Assembly (NCBI GenBank): GCA_023512635.1
Contig: JAILZF010000009.1
Coordinates: 1 to 34,138, forward strand
Source of the DNA: Alicyclobacillus sp.
GTDB taxonomy: Bacteria > Bacillota > Bacilli > Alicyclobacillales > Alicyclobacillaceae
DNA length: 34,138 nt
Direction of reading: 5' to 3'
The stretch's first letter is position 1, and each line of letters opens with the position of its first letter. The notes beneath the pieces were generated by a model that did not search any database, was not told the DNA's origin, and saw nothing but the letters and a program-made list of their open reading frames with translations. Below, piece by piece: positions 15,395 to 27,578 of this stretch. A program made the translations under genes and the position numbers.

Positions 15395-15817
15395 ATGAAC
15401 ATCTTGGCCATTGGGGTGTTTGGATGTATTGGAGGGATGCTCCGGCTTGTCATTGAAAACAGCCTGCACGGACCGCAGGGTTTGCCAGTGGCCACCGTCA
15501 CCATCAATCTAAGCGGATCGTTCCTGTTAGGGTTTTTCCTTGTGATGGCGGAACGGAAAGGGTATCGGGACTGGATTAGGCAGGGGATAGGCGTGGGCTT
15601 GTTGGGGGCCTTGACCACCTTTTCAAATTTTACATTGGACACCTTGCAGCTGTTGCGCACGCATGGGGGGCTGGCCGCTGCCTATGTTGCGCTGAGCCTG
15701 GGGGGCGGGCTGATCTGCGTGTGGTTTGGTGAAGGGTTGGCCAGCCGGGTGTTTGCACGCCCCCTTCCATCCGCCTTGCCGGATGCGGGAGGGTATGCGT
15801 ATGACACTGGCCAATGA
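15395..15817 (+). CDS. crcB: Fluoride channel/exporter CrcB (FluC), first subunit
   Basis: The 140-residue product is a four-helix Fluc fluoride channel subunit. Visible family features are GCIGGMLRLVIEN with the conserved Arg, INLSGSFLLGF with the pore Asn, and GLLGALTTFSNFTLDT with the phenylalanine-box TTFSxF. A 25-residue tail beyond the usual end is encoded partly by sequence shared with the start of the next gene. An AGGAGAG site lies upstream of the ATG. It is under the fluoride riboswitch and overlaps the second crcB by 17 bases; in many Firmicutes the two paralogues form one channel. Confidence 0.93.
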   Translation: MNILAIGVFGCIGGMLRLVIENSLHGPQGLPVATVTINLSGSFLLGFFLVMAERKGYRDWIRQGIGVGLLGALTTFSNFTLDTLQLLRTHGGLAAAYVALSLGGGLICVWFGEGLASRVFARPLPSALPDAGGYAYDTGQ

Positions 15818-16169
15818 CCTGTTGGTGGGGACAGGAGCGACCGTGGGCACCGTGTTGCGATACGGGGTGGGGCAGTGGCTGGGGAAGAAGCTGGCTGTGC
15901 AGTTCCCTTGGGGGACTTGGTTGGTGAACGTGGTGGGGGCTTTTTGGCTGGGGTGGTGTGTGCGGGGGGTTGACGCCGGGGTATTGAGCTCCGGCTGGTG
16001 GATGTTCTTGGGGACTGGGGTGTGCGGTGGTTTTACGACGTTTTCCACGCTGTCGGTCGAGACGGTTCGATTGCTTCGCGTCAATTGGCGGATGGCGCTG
16101 GTGTATGTCGGCAGCTCGCTGGGGGTGGGAGGATGGTTGGGCTGGCTGGCGATGCACCACTTTGGGTGA
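15801..16169 (+). CDS. crcB: Fluoride channel/exporter CrcB (FluC), second subunit
   Basis: This 122-residue Fluc subunit shows GTGATVGTVLRYGVGQ with the conserved Arg, LVNVVGAFWLGW with the pore Asn, and GVCGGFTTFSTLSVET. The ATG at 15801 has GGGAGGG seven bases before it; upstream in-frame ATGs at 15783 and 15795 are too near or before that site. The reading frame starts inside the end of the first crcB, so translation is probably coupled. It exports fluoride together with, or in antiparallel pairing to, the first subunit. Confidence 0.93.
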   Translation: MTLANDLLVGTGATVGTVLRYGVGQWLGKKLAVQFPWGTWLVNVVGAFWLGWCVRGVDAGVLSSGWWMFLGTGVCGGFTTFSTLSVETVRLLRVNWRMALVYVGSSLGVGGWLGWLAMHHFG

Positions 16170-16242: not shown

Positions 16243-17061
16243 TCACTGCAGGCTCTCAAACCCGCCGGTGGACAGGGTGAGACCCCCGTCCACGCGGATG
16301 ACCTGCCCGGTGATAAAGCGGGCGGCGTCACTCGCTAAAAAGACGGCCGCGTCGGCCACGTCCTCTGGGGTGCCAAGGCGGCCGAGCGGGGTGTGAGCGA
16401 TGACGTCGCGGCGATAGGCTTCAAACTGGCTGCCTGCGAAAAAGCGGGCTGATTCGGTATCGACCACACCTGGGCAGAGGGCGTTGCAGGTTATCTGCTG
16501 AGGACCGAGTTCGGCGGCCAGGTACCGGATGAGCGATTCTAGTGCAGCCTTGGCGGTGCCGAGCAGGGCGTAGCGGGGCAGGGTATAGTCACTGCCCATG
16601 CTGGAGATGGCGATGACCCGTCCGCCCGGGCTGGGGTCTGTGGCTGAGGCCATGAGCGGCAGGGCGTATTGGACTGCCTGGACCACGCTGTAAACCACGG
16701 TTTTATACGTCCGCTCGAAATGATGGGGTTTGAGTTCCATGACGGGTTTAAACGCGCTGGCGGCGGCGTTGGCGACAAACACATCGAGGCGTCCCCAACG
16801 CTTGCCAATGGCTTCGAACATCGCCTGTAAGTCGTCGTCCACTTCCATTTCAGCGCGCACCACGAAGGTGTCCCGGCCCAGGCGGCGAATCTCCTCTGCC
16901 GTCTGCTCAGCTGCTTCCTGGTTACGCCGATAGTGTATCACCACATCGGCGCCCGCGCGCGCCATGGCCAGGGCACACGCCCGGCCGATGCCGCGGCTGC
17001 TGCCGGTGATGAGGATTTTCTTCCCGGCCAGCACCTGTCCGGTGGGAGTATCTGTTGGCAA
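16243..17061 (-). CDS. FabL-like short-chain enoyl reductase, candidate 1-cyclohexenylcarbonyl-CoA reductase (ChcA-like)
   Basis: The 272-residue product is an SDR with ITGSSRGIGRA at residues 18-28 and VANAAAS at 97. The active site has Tyr164 and Lys171 (YALLGTAK): Y-x6-K, the spacing that marks FabL enoyl-ACP reductase III, in contrast to the Y-x3-K of ordinary SDRs. The C-terminal half (KAALESLIRYLAAELGP, NALCPGVVDTESARFF) is also FabL-like. It may therefore be a housekeeping enoyl-ACP reductase, or, given the adjacent genes, the enoyl-CoA reductase that makes cyclohexanecarboxyl-CoA. The TTG at 17061 lies ten bases after AAAGGAG; no ATG is available. It follows the FadH-like gene in the same direction after a 230-base gap with a strong hairpin. 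Confidence 0.85.
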   Translation of the reverse strand: MPTDTPTGQVLAGKKILITGSSRGIGRACALAMARAGADVVIHYRRNQEAAEQTAEEIRRLGRDTFVVRAEMEVDDDLQAMFEAIGKRWGRLDVFVANAAASAFKPVMELKPHHFERTYKTVVYSVVQAVQYALPLMASATDPSPGGRVIAISSMGSDYTLPRYALLGTAKAALESLIRYLAAELGPQQITCNALCPGVVDTESARFFAGSQFEAYRRDVIAHTPLGRLGTPEDVADAAVFLASDAARFITGQVIRVDGGLTLSTGGFESLQ

Positions 17062-17130
17062 TGTGAATCGGCTCCTTTCGTCGGTCGCGTAGCAAGTGGA
17101 GGCTCGTCTTGGGATGACCTGTTGCGTTGG

Positions 17131-17162
17131 CGCGAGCCGGAGCGGGCGCGAGCCGGAGCGGG
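17131..17162 (+). repeat. Two direct 16-base repeats
   Basis: CGCGAGCCGGAGCGGG occurs twice head to tail (17131-17146 and 17147-17162), followed by a further CGCG. It lies in the gap between the FadH-like gene and the SDR gene, next to the hairpin at 17188. Confidence 0.8.
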
Positions 17163-17187
17163 CGCGTGTGGCGCGGATGGCGCCCGT

Positions 17188-17228
17188 CGCGGGATTGCGC
17201 AGGCCCCGCGGCCCTGTGCAATCCCGCG
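17188..17228. other. Long hairpin in the leader of the FabL-like gene
   Basis: Positions 17188-17203 and 17213-17228 form a 16-bp stem (arms starting CGCGGGATTG and ending CAATCCCGCG) with a single G-U/C-A position and a 9-base loop. There is no T run. It could end transcription of the upstream FadH-like gene, stabilise the message, or regulate the downstream SDR gene. Confidence 0.6.
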
Positions 17229-17291
17229 TGAGTCCGCGCAAACCGTTTTCCTTACAAGCCGTTTTCCTAGCACCCGCCGCCAGCGCTGCTT

Positions 17292-19397
17292 CTACAATTC
17301 ATACGCCGCTTCAAACCCTTCCCGGATGGCTCGTGCAGCGTTCAGCCCGCGCGTTTCACGGGCGCCGCCAATCACGCGCAGCCATGGGTGATCCGCCAGC
17401 TCCTCCCATAACTCACGGCGCGGGACTTGGCCTGTACAAATCACCACCTGGTCCGCAGGAATCAGCCGCTCCTCGCCATGGACCGTGCCCAGAATGCCCT
17501 CGTCCACCACAGCTTTTGCCTGGAAGTGGGTGAGGGTTTGAATCCCCAACTCGTGGAGTTCGCTGCGCACCACCCAGCGCGTGGTGCGGCCCACGGTGGC
17601 GGCAATCCGCTGGGACCTCGCCAACAGGGTGATGGTGCGGGGCATCCCCTGGGCCGTGGTCGCGGCTGGACTGCCTGCGCCGTTCGCCGCCGCGGCTGGA
17701 CTCGCCCCAGCGCCTGCCGCCGTACCTGTGGTGGCAGACCAGCCGGGGGCAAGGCGGTGGTGAGCGAGGAACGCCTGCACGGAGGCTGGTGGGTGCGAAC
17801 CCTTCGCCAGGTACAAGGCGACGTCGCAGCCAATCCCACCGGCGCCGAGGATGGCCACGCGCCGGCCAGCGGCGACGCGGCCCGAGAGCAGGTCACTGTA
17901 CGAGACCACGTGGGGCAAATGGACGCCGGGCAAGTCAGGGAGTGCCGGGGCGACGCCGGTGGCCAGCAACACCGCGTCAAAAGCGCGCAGGTCTTGGACG
18001 CTGGCGCGGGTGTTCAGGCGTACCTCCACGCCCAGGCGTGCCAACTCGTGCTGGTAGTAGCGCAGCGTCTCCCAAAACTCCTCCTTGCCTGCCACCTGCG
18101 CCGCCAGCCGCAACTGGCCCCCCAGCACGGGCATCGCCTCAAACAGCGTCACCGCATGGCCGCGCTGTGCCGCGGTCCGGGCAGCCTCAAGGCCGGCCGG
18201 GCCCCCGCCTACCACCGCCACGCGGCGGCTGGAGCGGGCAGGCGCCAGCGGCCAGTCGTATTCCTGCCCGGCGCGCGGGTTGGCCAGGCAACTTGCAGGA
18301 CGGGGCGGCCGGTCCATCACGTGATCGAGACACGATTGGTTGCAGGCGATACACACGTTCAGTCCAGCCCGGTCACCTTGCAGGGCTTTGCGGGCAAAAG
18401 CAGCATCCGCCAGCCAAGGCCGGGCGGGGGCGACAAAGTCGAGCCAACCTAAGGCAATCAGTCGGTCAGCCACTTCGGGCGTGTTGATGCGGTTGGCGCC
18501 AATCACCGGGATGCGCACCGCCGCTTTGATCCCCGCCACGACGGGCGCAAAACCGCCGCGCGGCACAACCGCAGCCACCGTGGGCACGAGGGATTCGTGC
18601 CAGCCTATGCCGATGTTGAGCGCATCCACGCCCGCCTGCTCCAGCCGCTGGGCGAACACCACCGTTTCCTCCCAGGAGGTGCTGCCGGGCATGCAGTCGG
18701 CTCCTGACATCCGGAACAACAGGGGGAAGTCCGGTCCGGTGGCGTCGCGGATGGCTGCCACCACCTCCAGGCTCAGGCGCATCCGGTTCTCCAGGCTGCC
18801 GCCGTACTCGTCTTGCCGCTGGTTGGTGAGCGGCGAGAGAAACTGGTTGAGCAGGTAGCCCTCCGATCCCATCACCTCGACCGCAGCAAACCCTGCCGCG
18901 CGGGCAAAACGCGCGGCGGCGGCAAACGCCTCCACCGTGGCGCGGATGTCCGCGCGGGTCATCGCGCGCGGCGTCTCGCGCGTGAACTTGGAGGCGATGG
19001 CGCTGGGCGCCCACGGCGTAGCCCCAATTTCGTCCGCAAAGGCGTAGCGGCCGGCGTGGAACAGCTGGAGGGCCACCTTCCCGCCTAAGGCGTGCAGGTG
19101 TTCCGCCAACCGCGCCAGTTGCCGTTGGTGATCCGGTTGGGTCAAGCAAAACCAGTGGTCACCGCCCCCCTCCGGGCTCACCGCGGCGCCGCCCGTGATG
19201 ATCAGCGCGGCACCGCCTTGTACGCGCTCCGCGTAGAACGAGTGCAGGCGTTTCTCCTGCGCGCTGTCGCCTTCGACGCCCAGGTGCATGGAGCCCATCA
19301 AGATCCGATGGGGCAGCATGAGGCTGCCGATGCGCCCCGGCTGGGCGAGTGCGGGGTACGTCGACGGGATGAGGGTCCAAGGAGCTGATGTGGACAA
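17292..19397 (-). CDS. fadH: FadH-like 2,4-dienoyl-CoA reductase (Old Yellow Enzyme family, FMN/FAD/4Fe-4S)
   Basis: The 701-residue product has the three-part FadH layout: an FMN-binding TIM barrel (1-330), a 4Fe-4S motif with Cys349, 352, 356 and 370, and FAD and NAD(P) domains (VVGGGPAGLEA near 396; ILGAGGIGCD near 516). The catalytic Tyr (VMGSEGYLLNQF, Tyr181) and His (IGIGWHES, His267) of E. coli FadH are kept, so reduction of a conjugated dienoyl-CoA is likely. A low-complexity Ala/Gly/Thr insertion at about 554-584 lies in the C-terminal domain. The TTG at 19397 follows GAGAGGAGAGGATACG. It is divergent from the EPSP-synthase-like gene and fits reduction of a cyclohexadiene-carbonyl-CoA intermediate. 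Confidence 0.88.
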   Translation of the reverse strand: MSTSAPWTLIPSTYPALAQPGRIGSLMLPHRILMGSMHLGVEGDSAQEKRLHSFYAERVQGGAALIITGGAAVSPEGGGDHWFCLTQPDHQRQLARLAEHLHALGGKVALQLFHAGRYAFADEIGATPWAPSAIASKFTRETPRAMTRADIRATVEAFAAAARFARAAGFAAVEVMGSEGYLLNQFLSPLTNQRQDEYGGSLENRMRLSLEVVAAIRDATGPDFPLLFRMSGADCMPGSTSWEETVVFAQRLEQAGVDALNIGIGWHESLVPTVAAVVPRGGFAPVVAGIKAAVRIPVIGANRINTPEVADRLIALGWLDFVAPARPWLADAAFARKALQGDRAGLNVCIACNQSCLDHVMDRPPRPASCLANPRAGQEYDWPLAPARSSRRVAVVGGGPAGLEAARTAAQRGHAVTLFEAMPVLGGQLRLAAQVAGKEEFWETLRYYQHELARLGVEVRLNTRASVQDLRAFDAVLLATGVAPALPDLPGVHLPHVVSYSDLLSGRVAAGRRVAILGAGGIGCDVALYLAKGSHPPASVQAFLAHHRLAPGWSATTGTAAGAGASPAAAANGAGSPAATTAQGMPRTITLLARSQRIAATVGRTTRWVVRSELHELGIQTLTHFQAKAVVDEGILGTVHGEERLIPADQVVICTGQVPRRELWEELADHPWLRVIGGARETRGLNAARAIREGFEAAYEL

Positions 19398-19488
19398 CGT
19401 ATCCTCTCCTCTCGCATAAAGCGCGCCGGCAGTCATACACATAAAACTAGGCATTCGCCAGATAGGAGCCTCGCCGCACGCCTCCCCT

Positions 19489-19508
19489 ATCCTTGAAGAA
19501 TCCTTGAA
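19489..19508 (+). repeat. Direct repeat in the divergent promoter region of the cluster
   Basis: ATCCTTGAA occurs at 19489-19497 and again at 19500-19508, an 11-base spacing of about one helical turn. It lies in the 212-base gap between the divergent FadH-like and EPSP-synthase-like genes and could be a regulator site or carry -35 elements (TTGAAA at 19504). Confidence 0.45.
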
Positions 19509-19569
19509 ATTCGGGGCGGGCAACGCTACCATTGTTACTATCTAAATTATCATGCTTGGTTTTATAGGC

Positions 19570-19598
19570 ATCGTACCCACCGAATACCGATTATGCAA
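19570..19598 (-). promoter_or_regulatory. Possible promoter of the FadH-like gene
   Basis: On the minus strand TTGCAT (19598-19593) and TACGAT (19575-19570) are 17 bases apart. Both boxes match only partly. For the opposite direction TTGAAA (19504-19509) and TACCAT (19527-19532), also 17 apart, could serve the EPSP-synthase-like gene. Confidence 0.3.
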
Positions 19599-19609
19599 GA
19601 GGCGAGATC

Positions 19610-20956
19610 ATGACGAAAATGATAGTCACTGCCACCCGCGGGGACGTGCGTGGAACCATCCCCGTTCCCTGCTCGAAATACCACCTCCACCGAGCCCTCA
19701 TCCTGGGCTCTTTAGCGGACGGGACGGCCCTCATCCACGGCCGATCCCAGGCCCGCCACATTCAAGACACCCTGAACTCTCTGAAGGACCTCGGCATTCG
19801 CGTAGACCACACGGCTGACGGTTACCGCGTGCACGGTGGTGCCTACGTGCCGCGCAACGGGCGTGTACGCGTGGGCAGTTCCGGCTCGACCCTGCAGTTT
19901 TTGCTCGGCTTGGGCGCGCGGGCGAGTGCGCCGGTCACGTACGACGGCGTCGAGGCGCTGCGCCGGCGTCCGATTGGACCGCTGCTGCAGGCGCTGCAGA
20001 CGCTCGGGGTGCGGACGGAGTCGGTTGACGAGCGGCTGCCGGTGACCGTCTACCCAGGGCTGCCGAAGGGCGGCCAGGTGCAGATACCTGGCGTGCTCAG
20101 CCAGTGGATTTCCGGGTTGCTGATGGTGGCCCCGCTGGCCCAGCAGGACACGGTCATCGAGATTTCCGATCCGTTCAACGAGCGCAACTACATCCGCTTG
20201 ACCGCAGCCATGATGGCACAGTTTGGCGTGCAGGTGCAGGCGTCGCCCGATGAGCGGCACTGGCAGGTGCCGGCAGGACAGGTGTTCCGCTCCGCTGAGG
20301 TGTATCTCGAGCCAGACCTGTCGTCCGCCGCCTTCCCCCTGGTCTACGCGGCTTTGCATCCTGGCGAAGTGCGGCTGACCGGCGTCGCCGGAGCGGGATC
20401 GCACCCGGAGGGCCGGGTGATTGACCTGTTGCGCGAGATGGGCGCGCAGGTGGAGGTGCAGGCGCAAGAACGGCAACTGGTGGTGCGCAACCGCGGCGAG
20501 CGGCTGCGCGCCATCGACGTCAATATGCAAGACATGCCGGACCTCATCCCCATCCTTTCCGTGGCGGCGGCCCTGGCCCGCGGCCGCAGCGTGCTGCGCA
20601 ACATCGGCCCGGGACGGTTGAAAGAGTCGAACCGCGTGCGCGCCATGCTGCAACTGCGCAAAATGGGCGCGCGCATTGAGGAGCAGGGCGACAACTTGGT
20701 GATTGACGGGGTAGAACGGCTGCACGGGGCGGACATCTCCAGCTTCAACGACCATCGTGTGTTGATGGCGTTTGCGGTGGCTGGGAGTGTGGCGGACGGC
20801 GAGACGCGGCTGACGTTCCCCAACGCTTTTCGCATCTCCTATCCCGAGTTCATCGACCATATGAAGGTGCTTGGGATGCGTTTTGGCCCGGCGGCTGCCT
20901 CGGCTGCACCGGCCGCGCCGGTGAAAGAGGAGTTGGTCCCCAGTGTCAGCGGCTGA
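19610..20956 (+). CDS. Diverged EPSP synthase homologue (AroA superfamily), probably a cyclohexanecarboxylate-pathway enzyme
   Basis: The 448-residue product has the enolpyruvyl-transferase fold with several AroA motifs: Lys23 and Arg28 of SKxxxHRAL, RRRPIGPLL, LSQWISGLLM, DMPDLIPILSVAA (Asp311), RLKESNRVRAM (Glu339, Arg342), NDHRVLMAF (Arg383) and ISYPEF. By eye, the NAGTAMR loop reads SSGSTLQ, losing Asn and Arg; the Ser after Lys23 is Tyr; KESDR is KESNR; and the C-terminal Lys of KTFPDYF is not kept. The altered residues contact PEP or shikimate 3-phosphate in true AroA, so this is probably not the housekeeping enzyme. GAGG lies seven bases before the ATG. It overlaps the acyl-CoA ligase gene by 14 bases. 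Inference: it removes an oxygen substituent from shikimate, as proposed for the homologue in the Streptomyces ansatrienin locus. Confidence 0.87.
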   Translation: MTKMIVTATRGDVRGTIPVPCSKYHLHRALILGSLADGTALIHGRSQARHIQDTLNSLKDLGIRVDHTADGYRVHGGAYVPRNGRVRVGSSGSTLQFLLGLGARASAPVTYDGVEALRRRPIGPLLQALQTLGVRTESVDERLPVTVYPGLPKGGQVQIPGVLSQWISGLLMVAPLAQQDTVIEISDPFNERNYIRLTAAMMAQFGVQVQASPDERHWQVPAGQVFRSAEVYLEPDLSSAAFPLVYAALHPGEVRLTGVAGAGSHPEGRVIDLLREMGAQVEVQAQERQLVVRNRGERLRAIDVNMQDMPDLIPILSVAAALARGRSVLRNIGPGRLKESNRVRAMLQLRKMGARIEEQGDNLVIDGVERLHGADISSFNDHRVLMAFAVAGSVADGETRLTFPNAFRISYPEFIDHMKVLGMRFGPAAASAAPAAPVKEELVPSVSG

Positions 20957-22592
20957 TTGGACGTCAAACCACGGTGCGGGTGTGGAACTGTTCCTTGACC
21001 GCTTGGACGCTACCTGCCGTCAGCAGCCCCAGCGGCTGGCTGTGGTGGACCTGAGCTCCGGCGCGCAGCCGGTCTGTCTGACCTACGGCGATCTCGCCGG
21101 ATTGGCGGAGCGGGTGGCGGCGCGCTTGCTGGAGCTAGGCGTCCAGCCTGGGGAGGCGGTTGGCTACCAGTTGCCAAGCTGTTGGGAGTTTGTCGTCTTG
21201 ACGGTGGCGCTCTGGCGGGTGGGAGCGGTGCCTTGCCCGCTTTTGCCGTCGCTGCGCGCGCGCGAGGTGCAGTTCATTCTCGCCACCGCCGGGGTTCGGC
21301 TGTGGGTGGTGCCGGACGAATACCGCGGCTTTGACTACCGCGCGTTGGTGGAACAGGTGCGGCCGCAACTGCCGCAGCTTACCTCGGTGCACATCTTGGA
21401 GTGGGGGGAGCGCTGGCCCCAGCAATCCACCCTGGGCGGGCTGCTGGCGGCACCGGCGGACGCAGCCGCGGCGGCCGCCCGCATACGTGATCGCCGGCCA
21501 GGGCCGGATGCGGCTGCGCAGTTGCTGTTCACCTCTGGGACGACGGGGGAGCCGAAAGGCGTGGTGCACACGCACCTCACGCTGTCCCATGGTTTGGCGG
21601 CGCACGTGCGCACCTTGGGGCTGACAGCAGAGGACACGGTCTGGGTGCCGTCGCCTTTGGCCCACCAGACGGGCTTTTTGTACGGCATGATGGTCTCGCT
21701 CTACCTGGGTGCCACCGGTGTCTATCAGGCCGTGTGGCAGGTGGACGACGCCCGGCGCGCCATTGCACAGTACGGAGCCCGTTTTGTGCAGGCGGCGATG
21801 CCGTTTCTGGCCGATCTCGCGCAGGCGCCCCAACCGCCGCAGGGGCTGCGCCTGTTTGTCGCCACTGGCGCCGCCATCCCGCGCGGTTTGGCGCAGATGG
21901 CGAGGGCGGCGCTCGGTTGTCCTGTGGTAGGGGCCTGGGGCTCCACCGAGACCTGCCTGGTGACGGTTGGTTTTCCGGGAGACCCTCCGGACAAGCTCTG
22001 GGGCACGGACGGCCGGGTGATGGACGGAATGGCCATCCGCATTGTCGACGACGCCGGGCGGCCACTGCCGGCAGGGGTGGAGGGCAACTTCCAGGTGAAG
22101 ACCCCGGCCATGTTCACCGGCTACCTGCACCACCCGGAGTGGACACAAGCCGCCATGACGGCGGACGGGTTTTTCGACACCGGCGATTTAGCGGTGATTG
22201 ACGCGGACGGTTACCTGCACATCAGCGGCCGCAAAAAAGACGTGATTAACCGCGGCGGTGAAAAAATCCCGGTGGTCGAGGTGGAAAACCTGCTCTACCA
22301 ACACCCGCGCGTCCGTGACGCAGCGGTGGTGGCGATGCCCGACCCGCGCTTGGGCGAGCGAGCCTGCGCGTTTGTGGTGAGCAAAGACGGCCAACCGCTG
22401 GACTTGGAAGACCTGACGGCGTTTTTACACGCCCAGGGGATGGCGAAGATCTACTGGCCGGAGCGCGTCGAGATGATGGACGAGCTGCCGCGCACGCCCA
22501 GCGGCAAGGTCCAAAAATACCTATTGCGCCAATGGATTGCTGACAAGCTGAAGGCGGAATGGGCCACCGCCTGTAAGGGTGGACAAGCTTAG
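20943..22592 (+). CDS. AMP-forming acyl-CoA synthetase (cyclohexanecarboxylate-CoA ligase-like)
   Basis: The 549-residue product is an ANL-superfamily acyl-CoA ligase. Visible motifs are the P-loop LLFTSGTTGEPKGVVHTH (near 194), VGAWGSTET (A5), FFDTGDLAVID (A7), YLHISGRKKDVINRGGEKI (A8, hinge) and the catalytic Lys in PRTPSGKVQKY near the C-terminus. It activates a carboxylic acid through an acyl-AMP to the CoA thioester. The sequence resembles short-chain and alicyclic/aromatic acid ligases. The start is GTG 20943, ten bases after GAGGAG and inside the end of the EPSP-synthase-like gene. In context it probably loads the shikimate-derived dihydroxycyclohexadiene carboxylate, or cyclohexanecarboxylate, onto CoA. 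Confidence 0.9.
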   Translation: MSAADWTSNHGAGVELFLDRLDATCRQQPQRLAVVDLSSGAQPVCLTYGDLAGLAERVAARLLELGVQPGEAVGYQLPSCWEFVVLTVALWRVGAVPCPLLPSLRAREVQFILATAGVRLWVVPDEYRGFDYRALVEQVRPQLPQLTSVHILEWGERWPQQSTLGGLLAAPADAAAAAARIRDRRPGPDAAAQLLFTSGTTGEPKGVVHTHLTLSHGLAAHVRTLGLTAEDTVWVPSPLAHQTGFLYGMMVSLYLGATGVYQAVWQVDDARRAIAQYGARFVQAAMPFLADLAQAPQPPQGLRLFVATGAAIPRGLAQMARAALGCPVVGAWGSTETCLVTVGFPGDPPDKLWGTDGRVMDGMAIRIVDDAGRPLPAGVEGNFQVKTPAMFTGYLHHPEWTQAAMTADGFFDTGDLAVIDADGYLHISGRKKDVINRGGEKIPVVEVENLLYQHPRVRDAAVVAMPDPRLGERACAFVVSKDGQPLDLEDLTAFLHAQGMAKIYWPERVEMMDELPRTPSGKVQKYLLRQWIADKLKAEWATACKGGQA

Positions 22593-22624
22593 GCCATGGG
22601 CCGCCGCCGGAGGGGGGAACGGGG

Positions 22625-23839
22625 TTGGCAGCAGAGCCATCGTTGCCGGCGCTGAAGGCCGAGATACAAGCGTTTGTACACGGGCCGGCCCGCGCCTGGG
22701 GCGAGCACATTGAGGCCAGCGGGCGATTGCCGGACGGTGTCTGGGACGAGCTGAACGCGCGTGGCTTCCTGCGCTTGGCGGCACCTGTTGCTTACGGCGG
22801 GCTGGGGCTGTCGTTTCCGGCCTACCTCGAGGTGTTTGAGGCGTTTGCACACATGCACGGCTCTCTGCGCGTCATTGTCCACGTCTGCAACGGCTTGTGG
22901 CGGGCGCTTGCGTACGCGGCAACGGCTGAGCAGTTGGAGCGCGTGGTCAAGCCGTTTGTTGCCGGCCAGCGGCGGGTGACGTTCACCCTGACGGAGCCGG
23001 ATTCGGGGGGTGGCACCGACCTGCGCACCACTGCCCGGCGCGAAGGCGACACGTACGTGTTAAACGGCCAGAAGTGGATGATTATCTTTGCGGATGTGGC
23101 GGACGATTTCCTGGTGTTTTGCCGCCTCGCCGGCAGCCGCGGCGCGGACGGCACGCTGGCGCTGCTGGTTCCCCGTGACGCTCCGGGCTTGGAGATCCGG
23201 CCGATGGCGCCGGCGATGGGGGTGACGGGGACGCAGCACGGACACCTGGTGTTCCGCGACTGCCGCGTGCCGGTGGCCAACCGTTTGGGCGAGGAGGGTC
23301 AGGGTCTGGCCGTGGCCTTCAACGGCTTTTTAGACCCGAGCCGCATCGGGGTTGCCATGACCTGCGTAGGCCTGGCTGCGCGTGCGCTCGATCTCGCGGT
23401 TTTGCATGCCCGTCAGCGCGTCACCTTTGGCAAGCCACTCGCGGATCGACAAACGATTCAGATGTGGGTGGGGGAGATGGCCACCGACATCGAGGCGGGC
23501 CGCCAACTGGCGCTGCAAGCGGGGCGTGTCTGGGCTGCCGCCGCAGAAAGCGAGGCGTCTGGCGCAGTAGCGAGGGAAGGCCATCAGGGGGCTAACCCGG
23601 CTGGCGGGGCGGCGCTGGCCAACCGGCCTTCAGCCAGTGCGTGGGCGGCGATGGCCAAGCTGTATTGCGCTGACATGTTGCAGCGTGTGACCGATAAGGC
23701 GTTGCAGATACACGGGGGGATTGGCTATTTCCGCTGCTCGGAGATGGAGCGGGTGTACCGCGACGCGCGCATGCTGCGGTTTGAAGAAGGCACGGCTGAG
23801 ATTCAGAAGCTGGTGATTGCCCGCGAGTGGCTCAAGTAG
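22625..23839 (+). CDS. Acyl-CoA dehydrogenase family flavoprotein
   Basis: The 404-residue product is an FAD-dependent acyl-CoA dehydrogenase: TFTLTEPDSGGGTDL (FAD/substrate loop near 119), NGQKWMI, the helical C-terminal domain with RVTFGKPLADRQTIQ, QIHGGIGYF and RFEEGTAEIQKLVIAR, where the catalytic Glu of the EGT region is kept. A low-complexity stretch of about 30 residues (near 303-333) interrupts the C-terminal helical domain. The TTG at 22625 has a G-rich ribosome site. It follows the ligase by 32 bases in one transcription unit with it and the EPSP-synthase-like gene. In context it may oxidise or, run in reverse, reduce ring positions of a cyclohexenyl-CoA thioester. Confidence 0.9.
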   Translation: MAAEPSLPALKAEIQAFVHGPARAWGEHIEASGRLPDGVWDELNARGFLRLAAPVAYGGLGLSFPAYLEVFEAFAHMHGSLRVIVHVCNGLWRALAYAATAEQLERVVKPFVAGQRRVTFTLTEPDSGGGTDLRTTARREGDTYVLNGQKWMIIFADVADDFLVFCRLAGSRGADGTLALLVPRDAPGLEIRPMAPAMGVTGTQHGHLVFRDCRVPVANRLGEEGQGLAVAFNGFLDPSRIGVAMTCVGLAARALDLAVLHARQRVTFGKPLADRQTIQMWVGEMATDIEAGRQLALQAGRVWAAAAESEASGAVAREGHQGANPAGGAALANRPSASAWAAMAKLYCADMLQRVTDKALQIHGGIGYFRCSEMERVYRDARMLRFEEGTAEIQKLVIAREWLK

Positions 23840-23878
23840 TGCGCATCGGCGGTGACCGCGTCCTGGAAAGCCGCGCAG

Positions 23879-23898
23879 GCCCGCCGGCCAGGGCGGGC
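23879..23898. terminator. GC-rich hairpin between convergent genes
   Basis: GCCCGCC (23879-23885) and GGCGGGC (23892-23898) form a 7-bp stem with a 6-base loop, 39 bases after the dehydrogenase stop and 49 bases after the convergent SDR stop. No T run follows, so termination is only suggested by position. Confidence 0.4.
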
Positions 23899-23947
23899 TG
23901 GCCGGGTGGCGCGGAGGATGAGCGCGGGCAGGTTCAACGCCAACGGG

Positions 23948-24706
23948 TCAACGCTTGAAGACGGCGGCGCCGTCGTCGACGAAAAAGGCGTGTCCGTTGA
24001 TGAACGACGCCTCGTCACTGGCTAAAAAGGCCACAACGTTGGCGACGTCTTCTGGTTTGCCGAGGGCGTGGCGCATGTGGGCGCGCTCTAGGATCTGCCA
24101 GGCGTGCGCGTTGCCGCGCCAGCCGTCGACAAGCGGGGTGTCAATCATCCCAGGGGCGACGGCGACCACACGGATATTGTACTTGGCCAACTCTAAGGCG
24201 GCGGCTTTGGTCATGGCGACCACCGCCGCCTTGCTGGCGTGGTAGGGCAGTTGCCGCCTGTCTACGATATAGGCGTAAATGGAAGCGGTATTGATGATGA
24301 CACCGCCGCGATTCCGCATGGCGGCTGCGGCTGCTTTGATGCCGTAGAACACCCCATCTTGGTTCACCCGTACCACCCGGTGGTACTCCTCAAGGGGCAT
24401 GTCGATCACGTTGTCGCGCCCGTCTCCAAACACACCTGCGTTGTTGAACATGATGTCGAGCTGGCCGTAGGTGGACACGGCCTCCTGGACAGCTTGGCAG
24501 ACGCTGTCGAACGAGGTCACGTCGGTCTGGACAGCGACGGCTTGTCCGCCGGCTGCTTGGATGGCCTGCACCGTGGTCTGCGCGGCTGCGAGGTGCAGGT
24601 CTGCTACCACTACTCGTGCGCCGTCGCGGGCCAAGCGTACAGCGCTCGCCCGCCCAATTCCCCCGCCGCCGCCTGTCACCAGGGCCACTTTTTCAGCCAA
24701 CCGCAT
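23948..24706 (-). CDS. Short-chain dehydrogenase/reductase
   Basis: This 252-residue classical SDR has VTGGGGGIGRA (10-20), an Asp after strand two (VVVADLH, suggesting NAD(H)), FNNAGV, the catalytic Ser in NTASIYAY, and Tyr-x3-Lys in PYHASKAAV, then APGMIDTPLVDG. The C-terminus is longer in side chains than FabG (INGHAFFVDDGAAVFKR). AGGAGG lies eight bases before the ATG. It converges on the acyl-CoA dehydrogenase gene. In the proposed pathway it could oxidise or reduce a ring hydroxyl/ketone; on its own the sequence only says NAD(P)-dependent alcohol dehydrogenase. Confidence 0.9.
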   Translation of the reverse strand: MRLAEKVALVTGGGGGIGRASAVRLARDGARVVVADLHLAAAQTTVQAIQAAGGQAVAVQTDVTSFDSVCQAVQEAVSTYGQLDIMFNNAGVFGDGRDNVIDMPLEEYHRVVRVNQDGVFYGIKAAAAAMRNRGGVIINTASIYAYIVDRRQLPYHASKAAVVAMTKAAALELAKYNIRVVAVAPGMIDTPLVDGWRGNAHAWQILERAHMRHALGKPEDVANVVAFLASDEASFINGHAFFVDDGAAVFKR

Positions 24707-26834: not shown

Positions 26835-27578
26835 TTGCGTAAACAGCGTAAACCGTGGGTTGCTGGGGTGGCTGCCGTGGCGCTGATGGTCATGTCTCCG
26901 GGCACCGCCTGGGCCAACCCGCACAGCGTGGGTGCCGGTCATGCCGGGGGAGGCACAGGCAGCGGATGGAGTGTACCCATGGGCGGGATCGACCGAACCC
27001 TGGGGGGTATAGGGACTGCCTTCTCCCCAGAAGGCTCTGTGACCACCTCGGTTCGACAAAAGCCGGTGACAGATCTGACCTCTGCAACTGCGACGGAGAC
27101 ATCCGACACAGGGGTGACGGGCATCCGTTCCGATCATGACGGCCATCCGGTCCCGCCGCGTGGTCAGGACGTATCCGCCTTGATGCACCTGTTGAATCAG
27201 TTCAACCAGGCAATGATGACGGCGCGCCAGCAGTTGGTGCTCTCTCTGTCATCCTCGACAGCCGCCAACGGATCGCAAACCGCTTGGCAGGCGTACGAGC
27301 AAGCGGTACAACAGGCGGTGGACCAGCTGCAACAGTCCCTGCAGCAGCTGTTGACCCCGGAAGACACCGGGACGGACACCGCAGCGGCGGCAGGCAGCAG
27401 CGGGGATTCCTCCGCTGGCAGCACCAGCTCTGGGGATACATCCTCGACCGCGGGTAGCACCACCACCACCACGGGGACGTCGGATACATCCTCGACCGTG
27501 GGTAGCACCACCACCACGGGGACGTCGGATACATCCTCAACCGCGGGTACCACCACCACCGCGCCAAGTGGCAGCTAA
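26835..27578 (+). CDS. Secreted Ser/Thr-rich protein controlled by c-di-GMP
   Basis: The 247-residue product has a classical signal peptide (RKQRKPWVAGVAAVALMVM..GTAWA, cleavage near residue 27), a variable Gly/Ser-rich part, one helical segment (LMHLLNQFNQAMMTARQQLVLSL.. to QQAVDQLQQSLQQLL, about 114-172, Gln-rich, possibly a coiled coil) and a low-complexity Ser/Thr/Asp tail with three repeats. No membrane anchor or sortase motif follows the tail. TTG 26835 is chosen because GGGGG lies eight bases upstream and the signal peptide starts there. I do not recognise the family. The c-di-GMP switch suggests a role in the sessile/motile change, for instance matrix or adhesion. Confidence 0.75.
   Translation: MRKQRKPWVAGVAAVALMVMSPGTAWANPHSVGAGHAGGGTGSGWSVPMGGIDRTLGGIGTAFSPEGSVTTSVRQKPVTDLTSATATETSDTGVTGIRSDHDGHPVPPRGQDVSALMHLLNQFNQAMMTARQQLVLSLSSSTAANGSQTAWQAYEQAVQQAVDQLQQSLQQLLTPEDTGTDTAAAAGSSGDSSAGSTSSGDTSSTAGSTTTTTGTSDTSSTVGSTTTTGTSDTSSTAGTTTTAPSGS
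27435..27563 (+). repeat. Three tandem 45-48-base coding repeats
   Basis: Units begin with GATACATCCTCGACCGCGGG at 27435 (48 bases), 27483 (45 bases) and 27528 (shorter, CAACCGCGGG). They encode DTSSTxGSTTTTxGTS. The length difference is one ACC codon within the Thr run, a typical slippage site. Confidence 0.85.

Follow-up and report, generated by a model that had tools for sequence, protein, structure and literature searches.

The contig analysed here (C204, whose 34,138 nucleotides we call the window) belongs to a 1.76-Mb, 63%-complete metagenome-assembled genome (MAG) of the Alicyclobacillaceae and carries a block of six genes that very probably encodes the pathway to cyclohexanecarboxyl-CoA (CHC-CoA), the starter unit of omega-cyclohexyl fatty acids. 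The genes encode a ChcA/FabL-like short-chain dehydrogenase/reductase (SDR1), a FadH-type 2,4-dienoyl-CoA reductase (OYE), a diverged homologue of 5-enolpyruvylshikimate-3-phosphate (EPSP) synthase (EPSPL), a CoA ligase (LIG), an acyl-CoA dehydrogenase (ACAD) and a further SDR (SDR2). The interpretation as a Firmicute CHC-CoA cluster is well supported by the occurrence of the core genes in known producers, by their linkage to 3-deoxy-D-arabino-heptulosonate 7-phosphate (DAHP) synthase, by the gene order known from Streptomyces and by an operon found in actinomycetes.

The genus Alicyclobacillus owes its name to omega-cyclohexyl lipids, which have been linked to its ability to withstand heat and acid in pasteurised juice. 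They were traced to shikimate in 1972 and the pathway has been known chemically since the 1970s. Our literature search, which was of partial coverage, found no description of the genes in Alicyclobacillus; a study of Sulfobacillus mentions the identification of omega-alicyclic fatty acid genes but gives no details (PMC4378227). The conserved block provides a short, ordered list of genes for the lipid pathway of Alicyclobacillus, ties this pathway to a polyketide starter of Streptomyces and singles out EPSPL as a protein restricted to some lineages.

Conservation of the block and its occurrence in producers

The fatty acids of A. acidocaldarius DSM 446 consist of about 51% omega-cyclohexane C17 and about 33% omega-cyclohexane C19, in total about 84% (PMC3035248), and a review lists A. 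acidocaldarius, A. acidoterrestris, A. dauci and A. fastidiosus as species with omega-cyclohexane fatty acids (PMC5023266). The first-pass annotation of this DNA had led us to expect the block in such producers, and the core SDR1-OYE-LIG-ACAD is indeed syntenic in all four species, namely in A. acidocaldarius DSM 446 (G026), A. acidoterrestris DSM 3922 (G036), A. dauci (G062) and A. fastidiosus (G063). The A. acidocaldarius orthologues share 57–67% identity with the proteins of the window; its block differs in that EPSPL and SDR2 are missing.

Among the 41 genomes of the family that were surveyed, the full six-gene order is shared with four others, which are Alicyclobacillaceae bacterium HOG9 (G009, contig JADGIC010000009.1, the closest relative of the window for this block), G005, A. 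mengziensis (G024) and Alicyclobacillus sp. SO9 (G015). The order SDR1-OYE-LIG-ACAD without EPSPL is found in nine further loci, the producers among them, and a tenth locus, cut by the end of its contig, retains OYE-LIG-ACAD (G011). Chance clustering of these genes was rejected because of this synteny in 14 other genomes. EPSPL, SDR2 and a thioesterase occur in a subset of the genomes only, and the block as a whole is absent from 17 of the 41, including A. curvatus and strain sp. ALC3.

DAHP synthase, which catalyses the opening step of the shikimate pathway, is encoded directly after ACAD in most relatives, and it also accompanies the block in the recorded producers A. acidocaldarius DSM 446 and A. 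acidoterrestris DSM 3922. Several points weigh against our interpretation. Unlike in most relatives, DAHP synthase does not follow ACAD in the window, although this 63%-complete genome has one on another contig (C136), near the ordinary AroA. Species without omega-alicyclic acids include A. pomorum, A. contaminans, A. macrosporangiidus and A. ferrooxydans, but none of the genomes that lack the block could be matched to a named species on record as devoid of these acids. The most distinctive gene of the block, EPSPL, is absent from the established producers. Finally, the homology to the ans and plm proteins of Streptomyces rests on published annotations. The source organism, an uncultured MAG, is nevertheless predicted to make omega-cyclohexyl lipids.

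Gene layout and assignment of the enzymes

All six open reading frames are present and each falls into the family originally named for it, and the close packing noted at first sight is borne out: the reading frames of EPSPL and LIG share 14 nt, and 32 nt separate LIG from ACAD (Table 1). It is uncertain at which codons SDR1 and OYE start; since conservation sets in at about 17034 and 19364, respectively, we conclude that the actual proteins do not span the whole reading frames. The intergenic region between the divergent OYE and EPSPL genes contains a single weak sigma-70-like match (19504-19532), which is not evidence of function.

Table 1. Features of the gene block in the window.
Feature	Assignment	Position	Strand	Basis and remarks
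SDR1	ChcA/FabL-like enoyl-CoA reductase	16243..17034	-	FabL model, 3oic, Y-x6-K; ORF open to 17241
OYE	FadH-type 2,4-dienoyl-CoA reductase (FMN, 4Fe-4S, FAD)	17292..19364	-	1ps9; ORF open to 19532
OYE/EPSPL divergent intergenic region	presumed promoter region	19365..19609		layout
EPSPL	diverged EPSP-synthase homologue	19610..20956	+	PF00275; ten-member clade
LIG	alicyclic carboxylate-CoA ligase	20943..22592	+	TIGR03208; adenylation motif intact
ACAD	acyl-CoA dehydrogenase-fold enzyme	22625..23839	+	nearest solved relative caffeyl-CoA reductase CarC
SDR2	ketoreductase-type SDR (Y-x3-K), accessory	23948..24706	-	orthologues at the same place in relatives

SDR1 is closest to FabL, with 249 bits against the FabL model and an E-value of 1.5e-53 against the solved structure 3oic, and shows the Y-x6-K spacing of enoyl reductases, which is kept by nearly all of its orthologues. 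Orthologues that adjoin OYE within the family are 63–78% identical. OYE aligns over its whole length with the E. coli 2,4-dienoyl-CoA reductase 1ps9 (E 9e-156), and its four-cysteine iron-sulfur motif and GWHE motif are found in all 14 aligned rows. An orthologue of about 60% identity or more is encoded in 24 of the 41 family genomes, a count that leaves out a 32% match in G008.

LIG is an AMP-binding enzyme with an intact adenylation motif, whose best NCBIfam model is the cyclohexanecarboxylate-CoA ligase TIGR03208 (495 bits, the cut-off of the model being 792); its best plasmid matches (39–43%) are annotated as cyclohexanecarboxylate-CoA ligase or aliA. The nearest relative of ACAD among solved structures is the caffeyl-CoA reductase CarC (6fah_C, E 5e-61), and the catalytic glutamate (EGTxE) is present in 15 rows. 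A comparison with 397 further genomes from the phylum gave no match to ACAD at E<=1e-100, at most four candidates being scored per genome. Relative to solved relatives and most orthologues, the ACAD of the window also has about 30 additional residues inserted near positions 303–330.

SDR2 carries the Y-x3-K motif of keto- and alcohol-converting SDRs, and G009, G005, G024, G015, G012 and G022 have orthologues of 64–78% identity in the same location. The initial suggestion of one six-gene pathway was upheld for the core and amended for SDR2, which we now regard as a peripheral, ketoreductase-type SDR. The block contains no isomerase of the ChcB type, whose gene is unlinked in Streptomyces and the search for which was confined to the block itself.

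EPSPL differs from ordinary EPSP synthases

EPSPL belongs to the EPSP-synthase fold family (289 bits against PF00275) and even exceeds the cut-off of the aroA equivalog model TIGR01356 (338 versus 287 bits). Together with the DAHP synthase gene in the same block of relatives, this score would fit a second 3-phosphoshikimate 1-carboxyvinyltransferase that boosts aromatic flux, an explanation which concerns this gene only and is compatible with a CHC-CoA cluster, but which we consider unlikely. In our tree, which was produced by a quick method and in which deep placement is uncertain, ten EPSPL sequences form one clade apart from all AroA rows (SH-aLRT 100) on a long stem of 2.35 changes per column. 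When these ten were compared with 32 AroA-type rows (E. coli numbering), the replacements S23Y, S169L, S197E and D49H turned out to be invariant in EPSPL; the Tyr/Leu/Glu combination at 23, 169 and 197 occurs in none of the AroA-type rows, where positions 23 and 169 are always Ser and position 197 is mostly Ser or Gln. In structures of EPSP synthase, Ser169 and Ser197 hold the 3-phosphate of the substrate and Ser23 its carboxylate. Nine active-site residues are kept, namely Lys22, Arg27, Arg124, Asp313, Lys340, Glu341, Arg344, His385 and Arg386, among them the catalytic Lys22, Asp313, Glu341 and His385, and most of the nine serve phosphoenolpyruvate (PEP) and catalysis in EPSP synthase. Moreover, all five Alicyclobacillaceae genomes that encode EPSPL carry a further AroA-type gene. 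Judged by its residues, EPSPL is not an ordinary AroA, and because the serine ligands are replaced and the PEP and catalytic residues kept, it presumably acts on a different, non-phosphorylated shikimate-type substrate with PEP use retained. The change K411I was dropped as a sign of divergence, as Ile is likewise found at this position in the class-II AroA of the same genome.

In a first survey of the Alicyclobacillaceae, EPSPL was found in 5 of 20 genomes that carry the block and in none of 17 that lack it, suggesting that it is accessory to the pathway rather than indispensable; nor can it be essential, given its absence from the classic producers. The description of this gene as a diverged EPSP-synthase homologue stands, with the amendment that it is optional. 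We tentatively propose, while regarding it as less than probable, that EPSPL represents a new activity on the EPSP-synthase fold, which would use non-phosphorylated shikimate or its thioester, activate a ring hydroxyl as an enolpyruvyl leaving group or else eliminate it directly, and thereby provide the committed step to CHC-CoA, the A. acidocaldarius lineage having replaced or dispensed with it.

Probable counterparts in Streptomyces and other Actinomycetota

In Streptomyces, the CHC-CoA product derives from shikimate. We take the ansatrienin genes ansJ-M to be starter genes for CHC-CoA, and AnsJ and PlmJ are presumably EPSP-synthase-like.

The starter genes of lactomycin (lmP1-P4) and phoslactomycin are arranged in the order ligase (plmJK), short-chain acyl-CoA dehydrogenase (plmL), ChcA and NADH:FMN oxidoreductase (plmM) (PMC5852498). 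Compared by annotation, the block contains the same clustered set of an AMP-forming ligase, an acyl-CoA dehydrogenase, a ChcA-type SDR and an FMN oxidoreductase, and this agreement in content and order bears out the earlier proposal of a Firmicute counterpart. There are differences as well: the Streptomyces genes serve a polyketide synthase, whereas the product of the block would go into fatty acids, and the block of the Alicyclobacillaceae is divergent on two strands, with DAHP synthase, SDR2 and a thioesterase added in relatives.

Among other Actinomycetota, Conexibacter sp. DBS9H8 has EPSPL-LIG-ACAD (49–53%), and four more genomes have EPSPL-LIG-ACAD-SDR1 in one operon (45–56% identity). 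A gene for an F420-dependent LLM-class oxidoreductase adjoins the EPSPL operon in G163 (L097 4677-5693) and in Conexibacter (L036 8994-9977), and this enzyme may stand in for the FadH-type OYE in actinomycetes. G163 has no relative of OYE at 1e-40; Conexibacter has one of 46% identity about 86 kb from EPSPL-LIG-ACAD. In one actinomycete locus (L098 7513-9159), a gene for a LarA-like isomerase dependent on the nickel-pincer cofactor (group 22) lies 160 nt upstream of EPSPL; it possibly performs a stereo-inverting ring step.

With SsgA as a marker, no Streptomyces genome turned up in the Actinomycetota sample, and a tblastn search of plasmids gave only AroA-type matches of at most 36%, with no Streptomyces CHC cluster among them. 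The 36% match on the Streptomyces plasmid NZ_CP109189 was rejected as such a cluster, the AroA-like gene lying beside phosphoglycerate mutase and arsenic genes. This arrangement (Streptomyces sp. NBC_01708, L049 11911-14729) resembles a cluster for an organoarsenic natural product.

Proposed pathway

Based on gene content and motifs, LIG would activate shikimate, or a dehydrated derivative, to its CoA thioester, whose ring would then be stripped by repeated loss of water and reduction. In these steps, OYE could reduce a conjugated dienoyl-CoA and the ACAD-fold flavoprotein could act on an enoyl/acyl-CoA pair, with SDR1 as a ChcA-type enzyme reducing the alpha,beta-enoyl-CoA intermediates, including 1-cyclohexenylcarbonyl-CoA to CHC-CoA. 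The latter would prime fatty acid synthesis to yield the omega-cyclohexyl C17 and C19 acids. EPSPL might perform an early step at a ring hydroxyl of its non-phosphorylated substrate, probably with PEP, by which the hydroxyl becomes a leaving group.

Alternative explanations

Gene clusters with an AliA-like ligase and an acyl-CoA dehydrogenase (AliB) are also known from catabolism, such as the bad-ali cluster of Aromatoleum and Rhodopseudomonas, and the block could accordingly serve to activate and degrade cyclohexanecarboxylate or shikimate-like acids. LIG is indeed nearest to AliA, and ACAD scores against models of cyclohexane-1-carbonyl-CoA dehydrogenase. However, we hold this to be very unlikely because the genes for ring cleavage are lacking: the block contains neither a BadK-type hydratase nor the ring-cleaving hydrolase BadI, nor a BadR-type gene, and has two reductases instead, SDR1 with its Y-x6-K motif and the FadH-type enzyme. 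The DAHP synthase of the relatives and the acyl carrier protein (ACP) that, in Alicyclobacillus sensu stricto, is encoded next to the block also speak against degradation, as does the retention of the block in strains with predominantly omega-cyclohexyl lipids.

A biosynthetic block might, on the other hand, yield a starter or metabolite that resembles CHC-CoA without being identical to it, e.g. cyclohexenyl- or hydroxycyclohexyl-carbonyl-CoA or the starter of a polyketide; EPSPL would then mark a branch that differs from A. acidocaldarius. This would agree with the confinement of EPSPL, SDR2 and the thioesterase to a subset of genomes, and the homologues in Actinomycetota could serve polyketides. 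The remaining core genes are, however, all common to the recorded omega-cyclohexyl producers and the window contains no polyketide synthase, so that a different product appears very unlikely to us and CHC-CoA remains the preferred one.

A second module and neighbouring genes

The six genes were correctly delimited by the first-pass annotation, which could not see that in Alicyclobacillus sensu stricto, A. acidocaldarius included, genes for ACP, a second ligase (LIG2), a second acyl-CoA dehydrogenase (ACAD2) and an alcohol dehydrogenase (ADH) are joined to the block beyond SDR1. In the genome of the window this module B lies on a separate contig (C144; L102, 4996-9698). With the composition ACP-ligase-ACAD-ADH-SDR (also seen in L106 and L107), it accompanies nearly all genomes that carry the block; ACAD2 of at least 65% identity is present in 23 of these 24 genomes and also in G017 and G008, which lack the block. 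Module B may act in one pathway with the block or may represent a different, ACP-bound route.

Elsewhere in the window, a tandem pair of overlapping CrcB-type fluoride channel genes (15395-16169) adjoins the block, and positions 27197-27578 encode a protein that looks secreted and has repeats rich in threonine and serine (TTTTGTSDTSSTVGS).

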